Assembly: GCF_900142695.1 (NCBI RefSeq)
Contig: NZ_FRBU01000019.1
Span: 1 to 64,000, forward strand
Length of the DNA: 64,000 nucleotides
Source of the DNA: Flavobacterium xanthum
GTDB lineage: Bacteria; Bacteroidota; Bacteroidia; Flavobacteriales; Flavobacteriaceae
Direction: 5' to 3'
The position numbers were made by a program, and so were the translations under genes. Shown piece after piece: positions 31,533-38,408 of this stretch (its first letter is position 1; every line of letters starts with the position of its first letter). Under the pieces are notes generated by a model. That model did no database searches. It saw nothing but the letters and a program-made list of their open reading frames with translations, and was not told the DNA's origin.

Positions 31533-31836
31533 TTTGGATTACTCATTATATACGATGCCCAAACTGTTTTTATTGCGTGCTATAGTTGCGTTTCAATAAT
31601 TATCTTTTTGTGTTCCTTTTGTGTTTTTATTTTGTTCCATGGTAAATGGGCTTAAATTGTTTTTTGCTATTGTTTTAACAAATTATTGATCTGTCTTATT
31701 TTGGCCTTTTTTATTCGTTATTATTGATGATGTTACACTAAAAGAGGATTTAAATGATTATTATTTAGTGATTGTTTATAATTAGTTTTTTTTAAGGAAT
31801 GCCGTCAATTATATTTCATTAAAAAAAAACAATTTT

Positions 31837-31869
31837 TTTCATTAAAAAAACAGTTTTTTTTTAATGAAA
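31837..31869. repeat. A/T-rich palindrome with an extra half-copy
   Basis: TTTCATTAAAAAAA (31837-31850) pairs with TTTTTTTTTAATGAAA (31854-31869) around a 3-base loop. A further copy of the left arm lies 23 bases upstream, at about 31814-31828. Confidence 0.6.
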
Positions 31870-32026
31870 TACTACGACATCCAATAAACTATTTTCTCTC
31901 GCTTTCAGAACTTTTCAAGAGTCACATAGAGATTGTGAATGCACAAGAATATATTGAAATTACCAGTATGTTTTTAAGTTTAAATCTAAATGGTGATCTC
32001 TATATGAATTTAAATAGCATTTTAAT

Positions 32027-32074
32027 CACTCACATTTAAAACCACGTAATTCTACGTGGTTTTAAATGTGAGTG
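32027..32074. repeat. Perfect 22-base inverted repeat with a 4-base loop
   Basis: Bases 32027-32048 are the exact reverse complement of 32053-32074, with loop ATTC. The inner part reads ACCACGTA/TACGTGGT. No T tract follows on either strand and no gene ends nearby, so it does not look like a normal terminator. It is a candidate palindromic repeat unit, RNA hairpin or protein-binding site. Confidence 0.8.
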
Positions 32075-32323
32075 AAGTATTAACTTCGCAATGATCATAT
32101 TAGGAGTAAGTTAGTAATACCTATTATATTCAATTGTTGTTAATGTCCTGTTTTTAATAAGCGTTTTACTATTTAAATAATTAACATTTAGGAACAGCAT
32201 TTCAAGCAGCTTGTTTATAAAATATGCGGCGGTAAAATGGGTAACTCTATTGTGCCATACATCTGTTAACTCACAAGCTTTGTTAAAAAAAATGAACAGA
32301 ATTAAATAATTAAAAACATAAAA

Positions 32324-32833
32324 ATGAGAGAAATTTTAACAATTTTATTGTGCTTTTTTTTAGTCCAAATGCATGCTCAAAGTGCATCAAATAAGCTGTT
32401 GCTTAGATCTACTACTGGAGTTTCGGGTTCTTCTAACCAAGTAAGTCTAGGCAATCAAAATTACGTTATTCAGCAAAGTGTTGGACAAGCAAGCGTTATA
32501 GGTACGTTCGCCAATGGAAGTTTGATATTTCGCCAAGGTTTTATACAACCTAATGTTCTTACAAAGATAGTGGATAAGAAAACACTTTTAAGTCTTGAAG
32601 CCATTGTTTACCCGAACCCTTTTATGGAAAGCATCAACATAGTATTTAGCGAGGAAATTACAGATAAAATTTCAGTCGAAATTTATGATATGCTTGGAAG
32701 GTTAGTTTTCGCCAAGATATATTCGCCAAGTCAAAATGTTTACGTGATGTTAGGAAGTTCTCCAGTCGCTAATTATATACTAAAGGTGATTGCGAACAAA
32801 AAACAATTAGTAAAAAAAATACTTAAAAATTAA
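32324..32833 (+). CDS. Small secreted protein with T9SS type A sorting domain
   Basis: Predicted 169-residue exported protein. A signal peptide covers about residues 1-18 (ending MHAQ). The middle has the Bacteroidota pattern QQSVGQASVIGTF followed by RQGFIQP. The C-terminal 80 residues are a type A sorting domain (VYPNPFMESINI, SVEIYDMLGRLVF, and a basic end KKILKN), which directs passage through the outer membrane and cell-surface attachment. There is almost no cargo besides these modules. It is the first gene of a five-gene operon of secreted and surface proteins. Confidence 0.85.
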   Translation: MREILTILLCFFLVQMHAQSASNKLLLRSTTGVSGSSNQVSLGNQNYVIQQSVGQASVIGTFANGSLIFRQGFIQPNVLTKIVDKKTLLSLEAIVYPNPFMESINIVFSEEITDKISVEIYDMLGRLVFAKIYSPSQNVYVMLGSSPVANYILKVIANKKQLVKKILKN

Positions 32834-32884
32834 ATAAAAAATGAAGCACGAAACTCGCAGACAAGCTAATACTAAATCAAAAAA

Positions 32885-33520
32885 ATGAAAAAAAATACTT
32901 TATTATTCCTGTTAATGATTGCAAGTACGTTTGCAACAGCACAACAACTTTACCTTGAAACAGGGAAAACGATGTCGTCTTTTGATTACACTAATTCTCA
33001 AAATGAGAAACTGGGTAATCTTCAGCAAACAGCTCATACTTTTATGGAAATTGGATACCGAGATAGAGTGATATCTAATCAGCAGCAGTTAAAGGGTTCT
33101 TTAGGAATACGATATGCCGGATACGGCGCTATTGGTAGTGATAATGAAGTCGGTAATTTTATGGAATGGAATGTTAACTATTTAGAGCTTAGTGTTGGGC
33201 TTGATCAACAACTTTTTAAAATTAAGAAAGCTTCAGTTTACTTGAAGGGATCAGCTTCGTATGGTTTTTTAGTTCAGGGAACCCAGACGATCAATAATAG
33301 GGTTATTAATTTGAAAAAGATTGAGGAATTTGATAAACCCATATTAAATTTTAGAGTAGGAACAGGTTTCTCACATCCTATTTCAGAAAATCTATCCTTT
33401 TATGTTCAATATATGTATGGGAAAAGCGTGGTTTGGGTTGCAAAACCAGAGAAATTGAGAATAGGAAGTAACAATGTAAGTTTTGGGTTATTGGTTAACC
33501 TATCTAATAAAACAAGATAA
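32885..33520 (+). CDS. Outer-membrane beta-barrel protein
   Basis: Predicted 211-residue protein with a signal peptide (ending ATAQQ) and alternating beta-strand sequence, for instance GSLGIRYAGYGAIG, ASVYLKGSASYGFLVQ and NLSFYVQYMYGKSVVWV, ending in a strand with NVSFGLLVNLS. This pattern fits an 8- to 10-strand outer-membrane barrel of about 190 residues. The function is unknown. It starts 51 bases after the T9SS-substrate gene and ends 7 bases before the first fibre-like gene, so it may help assemble or anchor those proteins. Confidence 0.7.
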   Translation: MKKNTLLFLLMIASTFATAQQLYLETGKTMSSFDYTNSQNEKLGNLQQTAHTFMEIGYRDRVISNQQQLKGSLGIRYAGYGAIGSDNEVGNFMEWNVNYLELSVGLDQQLFKIKKASVYLKGSASYGFLVQGTQTINNRVINLKKIEEFDKPILNFRVGTGFSHPISENLSFYVQYMYGKSVVWVAKPEKLRIGSNNVSFGLLVNLSNKTR

Positions 33521-33527
33521 TAATATT

Positions 33528-35564
33528 ATGAAAAAATTATTCGTATTTGCTTTCATCTTGTTTGCAAGCATCAAACTTACAGCTCAAACAGATGGAATTA
33601 GCTATCAAGCCCTAATATTAAACCCTAAAAATCAAGAAATTCCAGGACAAGATGTTAGTGGGAATATCTTTCCAAATAAAAAACTGGAAATTCGGTTTAC
33701 AATCATCAATGCAGCAGGCGTAGTTGAATATACGGAAGTGCAATCCACAATGACTGATTCTTATGGTATGATTAACCTCGTGATTGGACAAGGTGCTCCT
33801 TCCTATGGCGTTTTCACAAAGATTATGTGGGACGGAACCAAGAAGGATTTAAAAGTAGAGATCAATTTGAATGGCAGCTACACAGATTTGAGCAATCAAG
33901 CGCTTTTGTTTACTCCATACGCTTATCATAGGGATATTATGGCGACGGGTGATTTATTAGTGGCAGGAAAAGTAGGGTTTTCTGGAGATTTGATTGTCGA
34001 GGGAACTACTGATTTAAATAAATCCTTAACCGTGAAAAACGGTTCAGCAACTCAACTTACAGGATCCTTGGATGTTGATGGAGCAGTTGCTATGAATAAT
34101 GCGGTAACAGTAGGAGGTGCAACTTCCTTAAAAAGTACATTGACAGTTGACGGTGCTATGCAAGTCAATAATTCATTTACTGTAACGGGTCCCGCGGTAT
34201 TTAATGACCTTGGCGTTAGAACTTTGAATGTAAAAAGTGATAATTCCGCTTTTGTCGCCACCTTCGAAAACCAAAATGGAGGGAACGGAGATGGTTTGTT
34301 AATAAAACTAGGAAGAACTCATGGGGCTTGGAATGGCAGCAGTTATTTGAATATTGAGAACCCTTTAGTTAACGCTTTTGATGGCCAAATAAACACAGTT
34401 AAAGGCTGGTTGAATGGGGGGTCATTTTCACCTATCCAACTTCTTAATTTAATGCCCGCAACATTTATAGCAGGAGCCATGGCACAAATAACAAATAGCA
34501 TTACAAGTTCAATAAATGATGGATTAAATTTACCTATTGGTTTTGATGCTGTTGTAGTCCCTAAAACACTAATTCTTCCGGAAGTAGAAATTTTTCCAGG
34601 AATAACTATGCCTCCTGGTATTCCAGACATTCCGAAAGTTAGGACTCCAAAAGTGGAACTTCCCTCGTTTGAGATACTTCCTGCGATTCCTAATCTAATT
34701 CCAAGAATCCCGAATATTCCAACTGATGGATTACCCAATTTGTCAATCCCAGAAATACCGTCACAGGTAGTAACTAACTCATTAACTAAAGAAAATCAAT
34801 ATGTTACCTTTCAAGATAAAGAGGGAAGGACAACAGGGACCATCAGAGCACAGTCTACAAAAGATTTCAGAGACAACACTATATTAGATAATGTTTATGT
34901 GTTAAATGTCGTTGCCAGCTTTACTGGAATTGATTTGTTAGGTGGTATTGCATCAGGTTCTGCGCAAATCTCAAATTTGACGGATAGATTCAATAAGTTA
35001 GGAGTAGAATATTCTTCAGGTAACGGAGATTATGCAGAGTGGTTAGAGCGTATAGATCAAAATGAATACTTATCAGCAGGTGATATTGTTGCTGTAAAAG
35101 GAGGAAAGATTACAAGGGATTTAAGCAATGCCGAACAAATAATGGCAGTATCTCATCATCCTATTATATTAGGAAATACTCCCGAAAAGGGAAAATCATT
35201 TATGGGTAATGATATTGCTTTTATGGGTCAGGTGCCCGTAAAAGTAATGGGGTCCGTACAATCTGGTGATTATATTGTAGCAAATTCTAAAATAAAAGGA
35301 TATGGAATTGCTATTCATCCAGATAAAATGAAGGCAGAAGATCATGTACTAGCTGTAGGACGTGCTTGGGATAACATGCCTAACGAAGGACCTAAAATGG
35401 TGAATACGGTTGTAGGCGTTCACAACGGAGACTGGGCTAAAATTATCACGAAAATTGAAGAGAAACAAAAATTATATGAAGATAAATTCGACAAGATAGA
35501 AGCTACTATGAAAATTCTGGATAAAAAAGCAGATAACTTATTATTAATAGACCAAAATAATTAA
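33528..35564 (+). CDS. Tail-fibre-like surface protein, first paralog
   Basis: Predicted 678-residue exported protein, complete. Signal peptide 1-20 (LTAQ); an N-terminal module ending LLFTPYAYHRD that resembles the Bacteroidota SYQA...VPYA module (about 22-130); a beta-repeat shaft of about 12-13 residues per repeat with V-D-G-A and N-N positions (about 140-235); a Pro/Ile-rich hinge (IPNLIPRIPNIPTDGLP, about 350-410); and a conserved end domain with GDYAEWLERID at 500-510, resembling chaperone/autocleavage domains of phage appendages. A coiled-coil-like tail closes it. The frame extends 15 codons upstream into the barrel gene; MKKLFVFAFILFASIK at 33528 gives a proper signal. No sorting domain is visible. 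Confidence 0.7.
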   Translation: MKKLFVFAFILFASIKLTAQTDGISYQALILNPKNQEIPGQDVSGNIFPNKKLEIRFTIINAAGVVEYTEVQSTMTDSYGMINLVIGQGAPSYGVFTKIMWDGTKKDLKVEINLNGSYTDLSNQALLFTPYAYHRDIMATGDLLVAGKVGFSGDLIVEGTTDLNKSLTVKNGSATQLTGSLDVDGAVAMNNAVTVGGATSLKSTLTVDGAMQVNNSFTVTGPAVFNDLGVRTLNVKSDNSAFVATFENQNGGNGDGLLIKLGRTHGAWNGSSYLNIENPLVNAFDGQINTVKGWLNGGSFSPIQLLNLMPATFIAGAMAQITNSITSSINDGLNLPIGFDAVVVPKTLILPEVEIFPGITMPPGIPDIPKVRTPKVELPSFEILPAIPNLIPRIPNIPTDGLPNLSIPEIPSQVVTNSLTKENQYVTFQDKEGRTTGTIRAQSTKDFRDNTILDNVYVLNVVASFTGIDLLGGIASGSAQISNLTDRFNKLGVEYSSGNGDYAEWLERIDQNEYLSAGDIVAVKGGKITRDLSNAEQIMAVSHHPIILGNTPEKGKSFMGNDIAFMGQVPVKVMGSVQSGDYIVANSKIKGYGIAIHPDKMKAEDHVLAVGRAWDNMPNEGPKMVNTVVGVHNGDWAKIITKIEEKQKLYEDKFDKIEATMKILDKKADNLLLIDQNN

Positions 35565-35574
35565 TGTGATCGGT

Positions 35575-37689
35575 ATGAAAAAATTACTATTATTTATGTT
35601 GTTCTTGTTTGCTAGTAGCACACTTATGGCACAAACAGATGGAATGAGTTATCAGGCCATACTATTAAATCCAAAAACACAAGAAATACCCGGAGCTGAT
35701 CCTGGTGGAAATATTTTACCTAACAAGACGATAAAGCTGCGTTTTACTATTTTGAAGTCCGCAGGAGAAGTTTTATACCAAGAGGTTCATAGTACATCTA
35801 CTGATGCCTATGGGATGATTAACGTGGTCATAGGCCAAGGATTAGCGTTTTCAGGTATTTACACAAATATTGTTTGGGACGGTAGTCTAATAGATTTAAA
35901 AGTAGAGATTAACATAGATGGAGAGTATACAAATTTCAGTAATCAATCTCTATTATTCGTTCCTTATGCTTATCATAGAGATGTTTTAGCGAGTGGAAAT
36001 TTAACAGTGGCAGGGAAAGTAGGGTTTTCTGGAGATTTCATTGTCGACGGAACGGCTGTTTTAAATAAATCATTGACTGTTAATAATGGCTCAGCAACTC
36101 AACTTACAGGATCGCTGGGTGTTGATGGAACAGCTTCGATAAATAATACGTTAATAGTGGCAAGTGCAACGGTATTTAGAAATACAGTAGCAGTTGATGG
36201 AGCTACTCAAATCAATAATTCAGTTACTGTAACAGGTTCTGGCACCTTGAATGATCTTGCGATTAGAACAATAAATATAAAAAGTGACAATCCAGATTTT
36301 GTAGCCACCTATGAAAACCAAAATGAAGCAAATGGAGATGGTTTGCTGATAAAATTAGGACGGACCCACGGAGCTTGGAATGGAAGTGGTTATCTTAATA
36401 TTCAAAATACTTTTGCACAGGCCTACGACACTCCTATAAATACGGTCAAAGGGTGGCTTGATGGAGGTTCATTTTCACCTGAACAGCTTTTCAAATTAAT
36501 GCCTGCAAGTATTCAAAAGGGAGTCATGGCTCAAATAGGAAACGCCTTAATCAAAGTCATAAATAGCGGTTTGCAATTGCCAATTGGTACTCCTGAAATC
36601 TTTATTCCAAAAACAAAATTAGTAAATAAAATAACTTTCTTCGCAGGAGGAAGAGGGTGTTTACCTGAGGTTTGTTTTCCGGAAATAGGGATATGTCCAG
36701 TTTGTACTCCAGAATTTTGTATTACAATATGCACACCAGAGATTCCAAGTATTGTTACTCCGGAGATAGTTTTTCCAAGAATTACACTTATTCCAGCGAT
36801 TCCAGAGCTATTTCCAACGATTCCAGAAATTCCAACTGCGGGATTACCAAGTTTGTCAATACCAAATTTCACATTTTCAACGGTTACTAATTCATTAACT
36901 GTTGAAAATCAATATATTACATTTCAAGATAAAGATGGGAGGGCAGTGGGAACGATTAGAGCTCAGTCTACCAAAGATTTCAGAGATAACACGGTATTAG
37001 ATAATGTGTATGTCCTAAATACATTGAGTAGCTTTGTTGGACTTGATTTAGCGGGAGGCGTTGCATCTGGTGTTGCACAAATCTCAAATCTAGTCAATAG
37101 TTTCAACAAAATAGGCGTTGAATATTCTTCAGGACACGGTGATTATGCGGAGTGGTTGGAGCGCATTGATCAAAACGAATACTTATCGGCAGGGGATGTC
37201 ATTGCTGTGAAAGGCGGTAAAATCACAAAAAATTTGACTAATGCTGAACAAATAATGGTTGTTTCTCATAAGCCAATTATCACCGGAAATGTTCCTGACG
37301 AGCATAAATTAGAGATGGGCAATAATGTAGCTTTTACGGGGCAGGTTCCAGTAAAGGTAACAGGGCCAGTACAATCTGGAGATTATATTATAGCAAGTTC
37401 AGCAATCAAAGGGTATGGAATTGCAATCCATCCGAAGGAGATGACTTCTATACATTTTTCTTTAGTAGTGGGGCGTTCTTGGGAAAATCAATTAAATGCT
37501 GGACCAAAAATGGTAAATATTGTTGTTGGTGTTCAAAATGGAGATTGGAATTTGCAAGTAAGTAAAATTCAGCAACAACAAGAACAATTGGATGCTAGAA
37601 TCGAAAATTTAAATACAAAACTGAATCGCATTGCTATAAAAATAAATAATGAAAAAACTAATAAAACCAAATATGCTAGTAGAAATTAG
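35575..37689 (+). CDS. Tail-fibre-like surface protein, second paralog with a Cys-rich insert
   Basis: Predicted 704-residue exported protein, a tandem duplicate of the preceding gene with the same domain order. The signal peptide ends LMAQ, and the end domain carries GDYAEWLERID from about 522. The main difference is an insert before the Pro/Ile hinge that holds six cysteines between residues 362 and 386 (pattern GCLPEVCFPEIGICPVC, then TPEFC and ITIC). The first paralog has no such cysteines, so disulfide cross-links between subunits are possible. I chose the ATG at 35575; a GTG three codons upstream is possible. The gene starts 10 bases after its paralog. Confidence 0.7.
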   Translation: MKKLLLFMLFLFASSTLMAQTDGMSYQAILLNPKTQEIPGADPGGNILPNKTIKLRFTILKSAGEVLYQEVHSTSTDAYGMINVVIGQGLAFSGIYTNIVWDGSLIDLKVEINIDGEYTNFSNQSLLFVPYAYHRDVLASGNLTVAGKVGFSGDFIVDGTAVLNKSLTVNNGSATQLTGSLGVDGTASINNTLIVASATVFRNTVAVDGATQINNSVTVTGSGTLNDLAIRTINIKSDNPDFVATYENQNEANGDGLLIKLGRTHGAWNGSGYLNIQNTFAQAYDTPINTVKGWLDGGSFSPEQLFKLMPASIQKGVMAQIGNALIKVINSGLQLPIGTPEIFIPKTKLVNKITFFAGGRGCLPEVCFPEIGICPVCTPEFCITICTPEIPSIVTPEIVFPRITLIPAIPELFPTIPEIPTAGLPSLSIPNFTFSTVTNSLTVENQYITFQDKDGRAVGTIRAQSTKDFRDNTVLDNVYVLNTLSSFVGLDLAGGVASGVAQISNLVNSFNKIGVEYSSGHGDYAEWLERIDQNEYLSAGDVIAVKGGKITKNLTNAEQIMVVSHKPIITGNVPDEHKLEMGNNVAFTGQVPVKVTGPVQSGDYIIASSAIKGYGIAIHPKEMTSIHFSLVVGRSWENQLNAGPKMVNIVVGVQNGDWNLQVSKIQQQQEQLDARIENLNTKLNRIAIKINNEKTNKTKYASRN

Positions 37690-38299
37690 AAAGTTAATGT
37701 TAATTACTGTTGGTAGTTTAGGAATATCGCTAACCGCATCAGCTCAGGATTTTGATAAGGTAGGGAACACTAAAGAGATTATTATTACAGCAGAACAGGC
37801 AGAAATCCTTAGTAATAATGAAAAAGAGACTAAAAAATGGATAGATGAACTTCAAACGCCTGGTGTTATAGTTGACGGCAATCAGATGAAATTTAGCAAA
37901 GAAGCTTTAAGACTTATTAATGATCCCGAATATCGAATAGGAGTATATAAAGAAGTGTATGACTTTAATGATATAAAGGAAACTCTTATGAACGCGGAAT
38001 ATTTAAAGGCCTTTTGGCAATTGATATCAATTTATCCGAAGGACAAAATATCTGCCATGAAATATATTTATGCTTTTGATAAGGCATTACCAGCGGATAA
38101 AATGGTAGTAAGTGCCTTTTATACTTATGCTTTTTTTGATCCTAAAATCACCTCTATTGAAAATGGAAAACCGAAGGTTTATCGTCCTGATATTTTTGAG
38201 GAGTATTTAAGACGAACCAAAGAAATTGTTTCTTATATTGCTTATTTTAGAGAAGAGGCGATAAAAGAAAAGGAAAAAAAAGCCAGTATTAAGGAATGA
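37649..38299 (+). CDS. Secreted protein of unknown function
   Basis: Predicted 216-residue protein with a signal peptide ending LTASAQ. The mature part is mostly helical and charged, with ITAEQAEILSNNEKETKKWI near the start and a Lys/Glu-rich C-terminus. I recognise no family. The start overlaps the upstream fibre gene by 41 bases; internal ATGs at 37673 and 37697 would shorten or avoid the overlap, but 37649 supplies the basic MKKLIKP n-region. It is the last gene before the operon terminator and may be an assembly or periplasmic factor. Confidence 0.6.
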   Translation: MKKLIKPNMLVEIRKLMLITVGSLGISLTASAQDFDKVGNTKEIIITAEQAEILSNNEKETKKWIDELQTPGVIVDGNQMKFSKEALRLINDPEYRIGVYKEVYDFNDIKETLMNAEYLKAFWQLISIYPKDKISAMKYIYAFDKALPADKMVVSAFYTYAFFDPKITSIENGKPKVYRPDIFEEYLRRTKEIVSYIAYFREEAIKEKEKKASIKE

Positions 38300-38384
38300 A
38301 ATTTATCATTACCATTTGGTAAGTAGACAGTTTTGATAGTTTCACTATTCCTTGTGATTAGGGATTGATTAGTAAGTAATATAG

Positions 38385-38408
38385 GGCCTAGAATTTAGGC
38401 CTTTTTTT
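38385..38408 (+). terminator. Terminator of the fibre-like operon
   Basis: GGCCTA (38385-38390) and TAGGCC (38396-38401) pair around GAATT and are followed by seven T residues. It lies about 85 bases after the last gene of the operon. Confidence 0.85.

Follow-up and report, generated by a model that had tools for sequence, protein, structure and literature searches.

The 64,000 nucleotides of Flavobacterium xanthum DNA analysed here (assembly GCF_900142695.1, contig NZ_FRBU01000019.1, positions 1 to 64,000 of the forward strand; hereafter the window) contain a five-gene operon which, judged from sequence comparisons, encodes a real, conserved and modular fibre system, related to the mosaic adhesive trimer (MAT) fibres of Bdellovibrio bacteriovorus and equipped with a new set of partner proteins. 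The genes encode a small substrate of the type IX secretion system (T9SS; the protein is called t9 here), a small protein resembling an outer-membrane beta-barrel (BAR), two paralogous fibre subunits (f1 and f2) and a helical protein with an export signal (HEL). With moderate confidence, we propose that these proteins make one heteromeric, MAT-type trimeric surface fibre, the base of which would be held by t9 and the barrel and the tip of which would be folded with HEL. The features of the operon, with the N-terminal domain of the fibres abbreviated as N-domain, are as follows.

32324..32833, + strand: t9 (P0001), small T9SS substrate of 169 amino acids (aa) with an export signal, an N-terminal domain of its own and a type A sorting domain
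32885..33520, + strand: BAR (P0002), small outer-membrane beta-barrel-like protein of 211 aa, found with N-domain subtype B
33528..35564, + strand: f1 (P0003), fibre subunit of 678 aa, ATG start
33588..33965 (approximate ends), + strand: MAT-like N-domain of f1, subtype B
33966..34247 (approximate ends), + strand: repeat stalk of f1, period 6/12
34248..34982 (approximate ends), + strand: middle tip region of f1, with the Pro/Ile-rich stretch that marks class I
34983..35423 (approximate ends), + strand: Peptidase_G2-like tip domain of f1
35424..35561, + strand: C-terminal helix of f1, coiled-coil-like
35575..37689, + strand: f2 (P0004), length-locked paralog of f1, 704 aa, ATG start
35635..36012 (approximate ends), + strand: MAT-like N-domain of f2
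37096..37536 (approximate ends), + strand: Peptidase_G2-like domain of f2
37649..38299, + strand: HEL (P0005), helical protein of 216 aa with an export signal, overlapping the end of f2 by 41 bases
38383..38408, + strand: intrinsic terminator 3' of the operon (hairpin and T tract)

The two fibre subunits have the same layout, in which a signal-peptide-like start is followed by the MAT-like N-domain, a repeat stalk, a middle region, a Peptidase_G2-like domain and a helix, and they are 64% identical, in agreement with the two large paralogs reported in an earlier reading of this DNA made without database searches (the sequence-only reading). The N-domain of P0003 was matched by the NCBIfam model MAT_N (NF053851) with an E value of 1.1e-5 (25.2 bits, below the cut-off of 60), and this model matched 13 of the 29 fibres of the family loci described below at E values up to 0.01. 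A search of 15 genomes chosen for having the N-domain gave 93 sites, every one below the curated cut-off, and 14 control genomes were silent. By profile similarity, the N-domains of f1 and f2 appear homologous to MAT, yet outside the curated subfamily; the N-domain profile had no match among solved structures (best E 0.26). The stalk repeats have periods of 6/12 in the window and of 26 and 12 in L015. At the other end of the fibres, PF11962 (Peptidase_G2) matched P0004 with 25.2 bits (cut-off 25) and P0003 with 24.6 bits, covering 49-76 of its 228 positions, and it matched 18 of the 29 family fibres at E values up to 0.01. The fibre tip as a whole also matched the chaperone domain of the Dpo31 tailspike (28nb; E 0.0018), and the pre-neck appendage protein 6qz9 was among the tip matches without being significant (E 0.91). 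Fold searches of P0003 gave no match at E 0.001 or better. A phage origin of the tip was considered and rejected; the viral contigs gave one weak relative (30% over 67 aa).

The type A sorting domain of P0001 exceeds the curated cut-offs of both TIGR04183 (45.6 bits, cut-off 23) and PF18962 (41.6 bits, cut-off 27), which bears out the minimal T9SS substrate recognised before. Ahead of it lies a domain of about 55 aa with the motif G...VGQ...QGFIQP, belonging to a family whose members occur throughout the class and share a pattern like G..VGQ/IGE..QGFxQP; no Pfam family matched this stretch at E 0.1. The F. xanthum genome has the T9SS translocon gene sprA at full length and 16 T9SS sorting domains. 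P0002 resembles an outer-membrane barrel (PF13505, 26.1 bits, just under the cut-off of 28.7), and no PorP/SprF profile was listed for it up to E 1, the families listed being PF13505, PF13568 and a TDE1717 family. With about 190 mature residues, BAR is probably too small for a pore role.

The conservation of this gene set was examined by several surveys. For the family survey, the middle and C-terminal region of f1 was searched in 299 Flavobacteriaceae genomes, 28 of which matched (the own genome included). We fetched 29 loci, L015-L017 having first been found through P0005 and the remainder of L018-L043 through the fibre; because L043 is cut by a contig start, 28 loci with complete ends were counted. 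In all 28 the t9 gene adjoins the fibre gene or is separated from it by the barrel gene only, with the order t9-barrel-fibre or barrel-t9-fibre; the barrel is present in 26 and HEL in 8. The five-gene set t9-barrel-f1-f2-HEL occurs in the window and six family loci (L015, L018-L022), and L016 and L017 have the order t9-fibre-HEL. When GTDB contigs were scanned, 386 relatives turned up; the best 80 by similarity to the window tip were taken and 79 loci kept (L132-L210), so that class I is over-represented in them through this selection by the window's own tip domain. Among these best 80 of 386, the five-gene set was also found in Maribacter algarum, Aureitalea, Halomarinibacterium, Dokdonia sinensis and Aureisphaera, the three-gene form in Flavobacterium gillisiae and Draconibacterium aestuarii, and HEL behind the fibre gene also in Saprospiraceae, Chitinophagaceae, Marinoscillum and an Ignavibacteria bin. 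L151, within an Ignavibacteria genome bin, reads t9-fibre-HEL.

Of 99 genomes sampled from the class, 60 contain the N-domain, with up to 17 matches per genome. The adjacency of t9 and the N-domain was counted in the 15 genomes chosen for having the N-domain, nine of which had supplied rows of the t9 alignment; the 47 of 140 rows that cover the domain ahead of the sorting domain were kept, and four split N-domain rows were merged into two. In these genomes, 37 of the 47 t9-type proteins adjoin an N-domain gene against a chance expectation of 0.13 pairs, as do 19 of 27 in the six genomes without rows in the alignment, and 40 of the 102 N-domain genes lie beside t9. In distant Bacteroidota with other tips, t9 is still paired with a MAT-like N-domain. 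By these counts, the small T9SS protein is the most widely conserved partner of MAT-like fibres. SprA was found in 94 of the 99 genomes (59 of 60 with the N-domain and 35 of 39 without), a distribution with little power as a phylogenetic test. One weak barrel match, L046, lies outside the system, with neither t9 nor a fibre as its neighbour. The sequence-only reading had taken the five genes for one unit in which the fibres are displayed, and had pointed to gene order across Bacteroidota as a check; the set proved to be conserved, its neighbours do not vary freely, and a functional unit organised around fibres that are predicted to be displayed is strongly supported.

The partners do not accompany the fibres at random, as seen from 139 distinct fibre genes in 116 loci (12 of 151 rows were dropped as duplicates). 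HEL lies beside 65 of 67 class I tips versus 1 of 67 other tips, although the six fibres used to train the profile for class I tips all have HEL, and their rows are not independent tests. Both class I tips without HEL (L143, L144) are in loci ending inside the second fibre, and the sole row of another class with HEL (L175) is a fragment of 157 residues located where its contig ends. The barrel accompanies 62 of 65 N-domains of subtype B, none of 33 of subtype A and none of the 10 rows with no N-domain detected; here the 15 rows on which the subtype profiles were trained (eight without and seven with the barrel) are not independent tests. Of the three misses in subtype B, L052 and L056 have a barrel that was dropped by the distance filter, and L135 is a cut contig. 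For t9, the corresponding counts are 62 of 64, 28 of 32 and 1 of 10, the four misses in subtype A coming from L194 (three genes) and L205. The rows with no N-domain detected include class I tips with HEL (L172, L176, L184, L189). L044 from the same genus retains the N-domain type, t9 and the barrel and has a different tip. Subtype B thus occurs with tips of class I, of class II and of the L044 kind, as a constant base joined to exchangeable tips. By eye, the L044 tip (L044:6118-7770) contains phage-fibre-like and YadA-head-like repeats.

The divergence of the proteins agrees with the pairings of t9 and of HEL. Over 35 loci, the partial correlations of between-locus distances, taken as descriptive figures, were 0.64 for t9 and the N-domain, 0.60 for HEL and the tip, and 0.24 or less for the other pairs; among the 16 barrel-bearing loci, barrel and N-domain correlated at 0.65. 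The rule suggested by the genome surveys is modular, t9 going with the N-domain, the barrel with the N-domain subtype and HEL with the tip. The earlier suggestion that the barrel and the last protein both aid export or assembly is refined by it, since the barrel tracks the N-domain and hence the base, and HEL tracks the tip.

To compare the two paralogs, one profile anchor was placed in the N-domain and another in the middle region, and the distance from one to the other was measured. In the 15 distinct loci with two fibres, which are not fully independent as L022 and L140 are near identical, this distance ranges from 223 to 643 residues, and f1 and f2 of one locus differ by 0 to 3 residues. 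When the f1/f2 pairings were shuffled, the mean difference was 122 residues, and none of 100000 shuffles was within 3. Measured between matched domain edges, the raw stalks have about 83 to 504 residues, with a difference within pairs of up to 6. The paralogs of these two-fibre loci are 45-70% identical, and in nine loci of the tip tree the f2 tips form their own clade apart from the f1 tips; length steps of 12 and 36 residues between loci of the f2 clade recur in both paralogs. Note that shared gap places may be favoured by the alignment program; the lengths themselves are independent of the alignment. For the window, Maribacter, Halomarinibacterium and UBA3611, by contrast, the f1 and f2 tips of each genome group with one another. 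The length lock suggests that f1 and f2 would assemble together in register, so that f2 is better read as a subunit of a joint assembly than as an appendage of its own.

P0005 had no informative match in Pfam, NCBIfam or PHROGs, and further family searches gave no consistent match. Searches that started from P0005 found it in 3 of 120 and 2 of 299 genomes, the own one included, which made it look rare, but the surveys based on the fibre revealed a far wider occurrence. The AlphaFold2 model of P0005 has high confidence from about residue 41 onwards (block means 86-98) and consists of helices, two short hairpins and a last helix of 36 residues. No convincing relative was found by Foldseek or VIA-align (no match reaching E 0.001; best VIA Z 4.9), an absence which does not show a new fold. 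In an alignment of nine members, the polar residues D144, D164, R179, D181 and E184 are invariant. Among the class II fibres, 18 (L023-L033, L035-L042) have a helical C-terminal extension of about 108-133 residues past the G2-like domain, in two related groups, in the place taken by HEL in class I loci. The idea that HEL is a detached form of this extension found no support, as their profiles, when compared, were not similar (probability at most 0.5%).

In the mechanism that we propose, f1 and f2 would reach the periplasm via their signal peptides and trimerise in register, and their C-terminal tips would fold with the aid of the Peptidase_G2-like domain and HEL. HEL would be the counterpart of the phage tail-fibre assembly chaperones, acting in the periplasm or outside because of its export signal. 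The base of the fibre would be formed by the conserved N-domains, which the barrel and t9 would hold at the outer membrane, with t9 bringing the base through or onto this membrane and fixing it, and the tip would point outwards and bind some ligand. In the T9SS translocon, the sorting domain of the substrate is bound inside the SprA pore with PorV, and a sideways release has been proposed (PMC10994853), so that a fibre base bound to t9 could hypothetically be pulled along. The gene set, the domain make-up, the three pairings and the equal stalk lengths are seen in the sequences, and from them and the known systems we infer the trimeric and heteromeric state, the surface display (from homology to MAT), the direct contacts, the T9SS-dependent export and the adhesive role. 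A stricter version is offered as a tentative suggestion: the two length-locked chains would form a heterotrimer as the cargo, the operon's barrel would be its dock, and an exported chaperone belonging to a new family would fold its tip.

Several observations weigh against the proposal of a single heteromeric fibre held by t9 and the barrel. All MAT_N matches in the 15 genomes remained under the curated cut-off, the match of the tip to 28nb is modest and its pieces alone are not significant, the structure model of f1 is weak overall (pLDDT 69.7, pTM 0.37), and HEL has no recognised fold. Some loci have a single fibre gene, showing that f2 is not always needed, and the f1 and f2 stalks are slightly more alike within a genome (identity 0.49-0.63) than between genomes (0.45-0.55; f1-f1 0.58-0.84 and f2-f2 0.42-0.69), so that exchange between the paralogs may help to keep their lengths equal. 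It is conceivable, though we think it doubtful, that f1 and f2 form two separate homotrimeric MAT-type fibres side by side, with equal stalks placing the tips at the same height and the accessory roles unchanged. This would suit the solved MAT tips, which are described as trimers of one protein (PMC10769870), and the separate clade of f2 tips in the nine loci, as expected for separate functions; however, the agreement within 0-3 residues, for stalks that range from about 83 to 504 residues and show steps of 12, 26 and 36 residues in both paralogs, is tighter than a height constraint seems to need. As for the last gene, HEL could be an enzyme or another effector that is delivered with the tip, for which the five invariant polar residues could form a site. 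We regard this as unlikely, as HEL has neither a consistent family match nor a fold match, and its one-to-one coupling to the tip and its place right behind the fibre gene resemble the phage fibre chaperones.

Further observations against the proposal concern the base. The barrel is absent from 2 of the 28 relatives, and within the 16 barrel loci it also tracks the tip (partial correlation 0.46), and t9 correlates with the tip at 0.48 versus 0.23 with the N-domain; this small subset departs from the simple modular rule. In the 15 genomes, 62 of 102 N-domain genes have no t9 neighbour by the adjacency criterion used, and a small T9SS-type neighbour was present in 20 of 40 hand-picked N-domain loci and absent from the other 20; one of the 60 genomes with the N-domain has no SprA match. 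Bdellovibrio is not known to possess a T9SS. Since MAT fibres are displayed by this organism (PMC10769870), a T9SS would not be needed for every such fibre. These points would fit a role of t9 as an outside cap or a second adhesin that is merely co-regulated, with the fibres crossing the outer membrane by another route, an explanation to which we give a limited chance because, when all loci are taken together, t9 tracks the N-domain and not the tip, and 9 of 10 G2-type proteins without a detected N-domain are without t9, which points to the base. Finally, single genes of these kinds are common, as the 16 sorting domains of the genome illustrate, and the operon might be an ordinary neighbourhood of unrelated envelope genes, but this explanation, already contradicted by the surveys, is extremely improbable given the conservation across families and orders (37 of 47 versus 0.13 expected) and the pairing rules.

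The layout of the operon is as it had been described from the DNA alone: the five open reading frames (32324-38299) are on the same strand, with successive gaps of 51, 7 and 10 bases and an overlap of 41 bases at the last junction, and end in a terminator, with which both the coordinates and the folding of the hairpin agree. The hairpin and T tract at 38383-38403 gave -13.5 kcal/mol (z -3.0), a value equalled by none of 200 shuffles; as a class, terminator-like sites are not in excess in the 8-kb region (3 found versus a shuffle mean of 4.2). The export signals of the operon proteins were read from the sequence by eye. The flanking genes, named by eye from the sequence, look unrelated: a leuC-like gene on the opposite strand lies upstream, and a membrane-protein gene lies about 1.7 kb downstream. 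A perfect 23-base inverted repeat with a 4-base loop lies about 250 bases 5' of the operon (32026-32075) and, with up to 3 mismatches allowed, does not recur in the window, and an AT-rich inverted repeat with 28-base arms, 93% complementary, lies at 31812-31871.

Some further features were seen in the fibre genes and around the related loci. Six Cys residues of f2 lie in a single Pro-rich stretch (window 36640-36750), where f1 has no Cys, and the second fibres of L134 and L132 are likewise Cys-rich in the stretch that matches that of f2. Directly 5' of t9 in many class I relatives is a gene for a large protein with a T9SS sorting domain (1272-1462 residues from stop to stop), as at L134:2016-6125 and in a similar place in L136, L137, L139, L140, L143-L146 and L015 (cut); it lies 3' of HEL in L141, is absent from the window, and by eye has HYR-like repeats in L134 and L015. 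Sensor kinase/response regulator-like genes were noted by eye at L134:12-1957, L018:127-2414, L019:11505-14179 and L027:185-2851, and none was seen in the same way beside the operon of the window.

The sequence-only reading had recognised no described system in this gene set. The fibres themselves can now be placed as relatives of the MAT fibres, while the set of partners was indeed not found described: the main text of the MAT paper (PMC10769870) does not contain the words operon, heterotrimer or Bacteroidetes, and no direct precedent for the pairing of the fibre N-domain with t9 was found within the openly licensed PMC papers. Like the MAT fibres as that paper presents them (PMC10769870), f1 and f2 have a signal-peptide-like start, directly after it a MAT-like, probably beta-rich N-domain of about 130 aa and then a long repeat stalk, and carry exchangeable C-terminal tips, the MAT ends including the phage chaperone type. 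Unlike them, the fibres described here belong to Bacteroidota, match the MAT_N profile below its curated cut-off, end in a Peptidase_G2-like domain instead of S74, include two length-locked chains and have dedicated t9, barrel and HEL genes beside them. The tip also resembles the tailspike chaperone domains (PF11962; Dpo31 D4, PDB 28nb) in that both have a DYAE motif and their profiles are similar in the C-terminal part of the fibre, but it sits on an exported cellular protein, and the match is partial and weak.

In phages, the gene for the tail-fibre chaperone commonly stands right behind the fibre gene. HEL is likewise a small gene behind the fibre and coupled to the tip, but it has an export signal and no informative PHROGs match, in which it differs from the tail-fibre assembly chaperones (accounts in PMC9608196, PMC10579305 and PMC7289586). 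For the base, a parallel exists with the type B substrates of the T9SS, which have partner barrels of the PorP/SprF kind (accounts in PMC9143113 and PMC12618676): in both cases a T9SS substrate is encoded with a barrel that may hold the substrate at the surface. In the present system, however, the sorting domain is of type A, the barrel is small and PF13505-like, and the fibre cargo has no sorting domain. If the proposed mechanism is true, a T9SS partner and an exported tip chaperone enter fibre biogenesis, a common unnamed pair of proteins (judging by the 60 of 99 sampled genomes of the class with the N-domain) becomes a testable system, and length-locked paralogs offer a simple sign by which heteromeric fibres might be recognised. 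In the MAT paper, the surface element bound by the N-domain is described as still to be identified (PMC10769870), and t9 and the barrel would be concrete first candidates for the anchor of the conserved base of the fibre.

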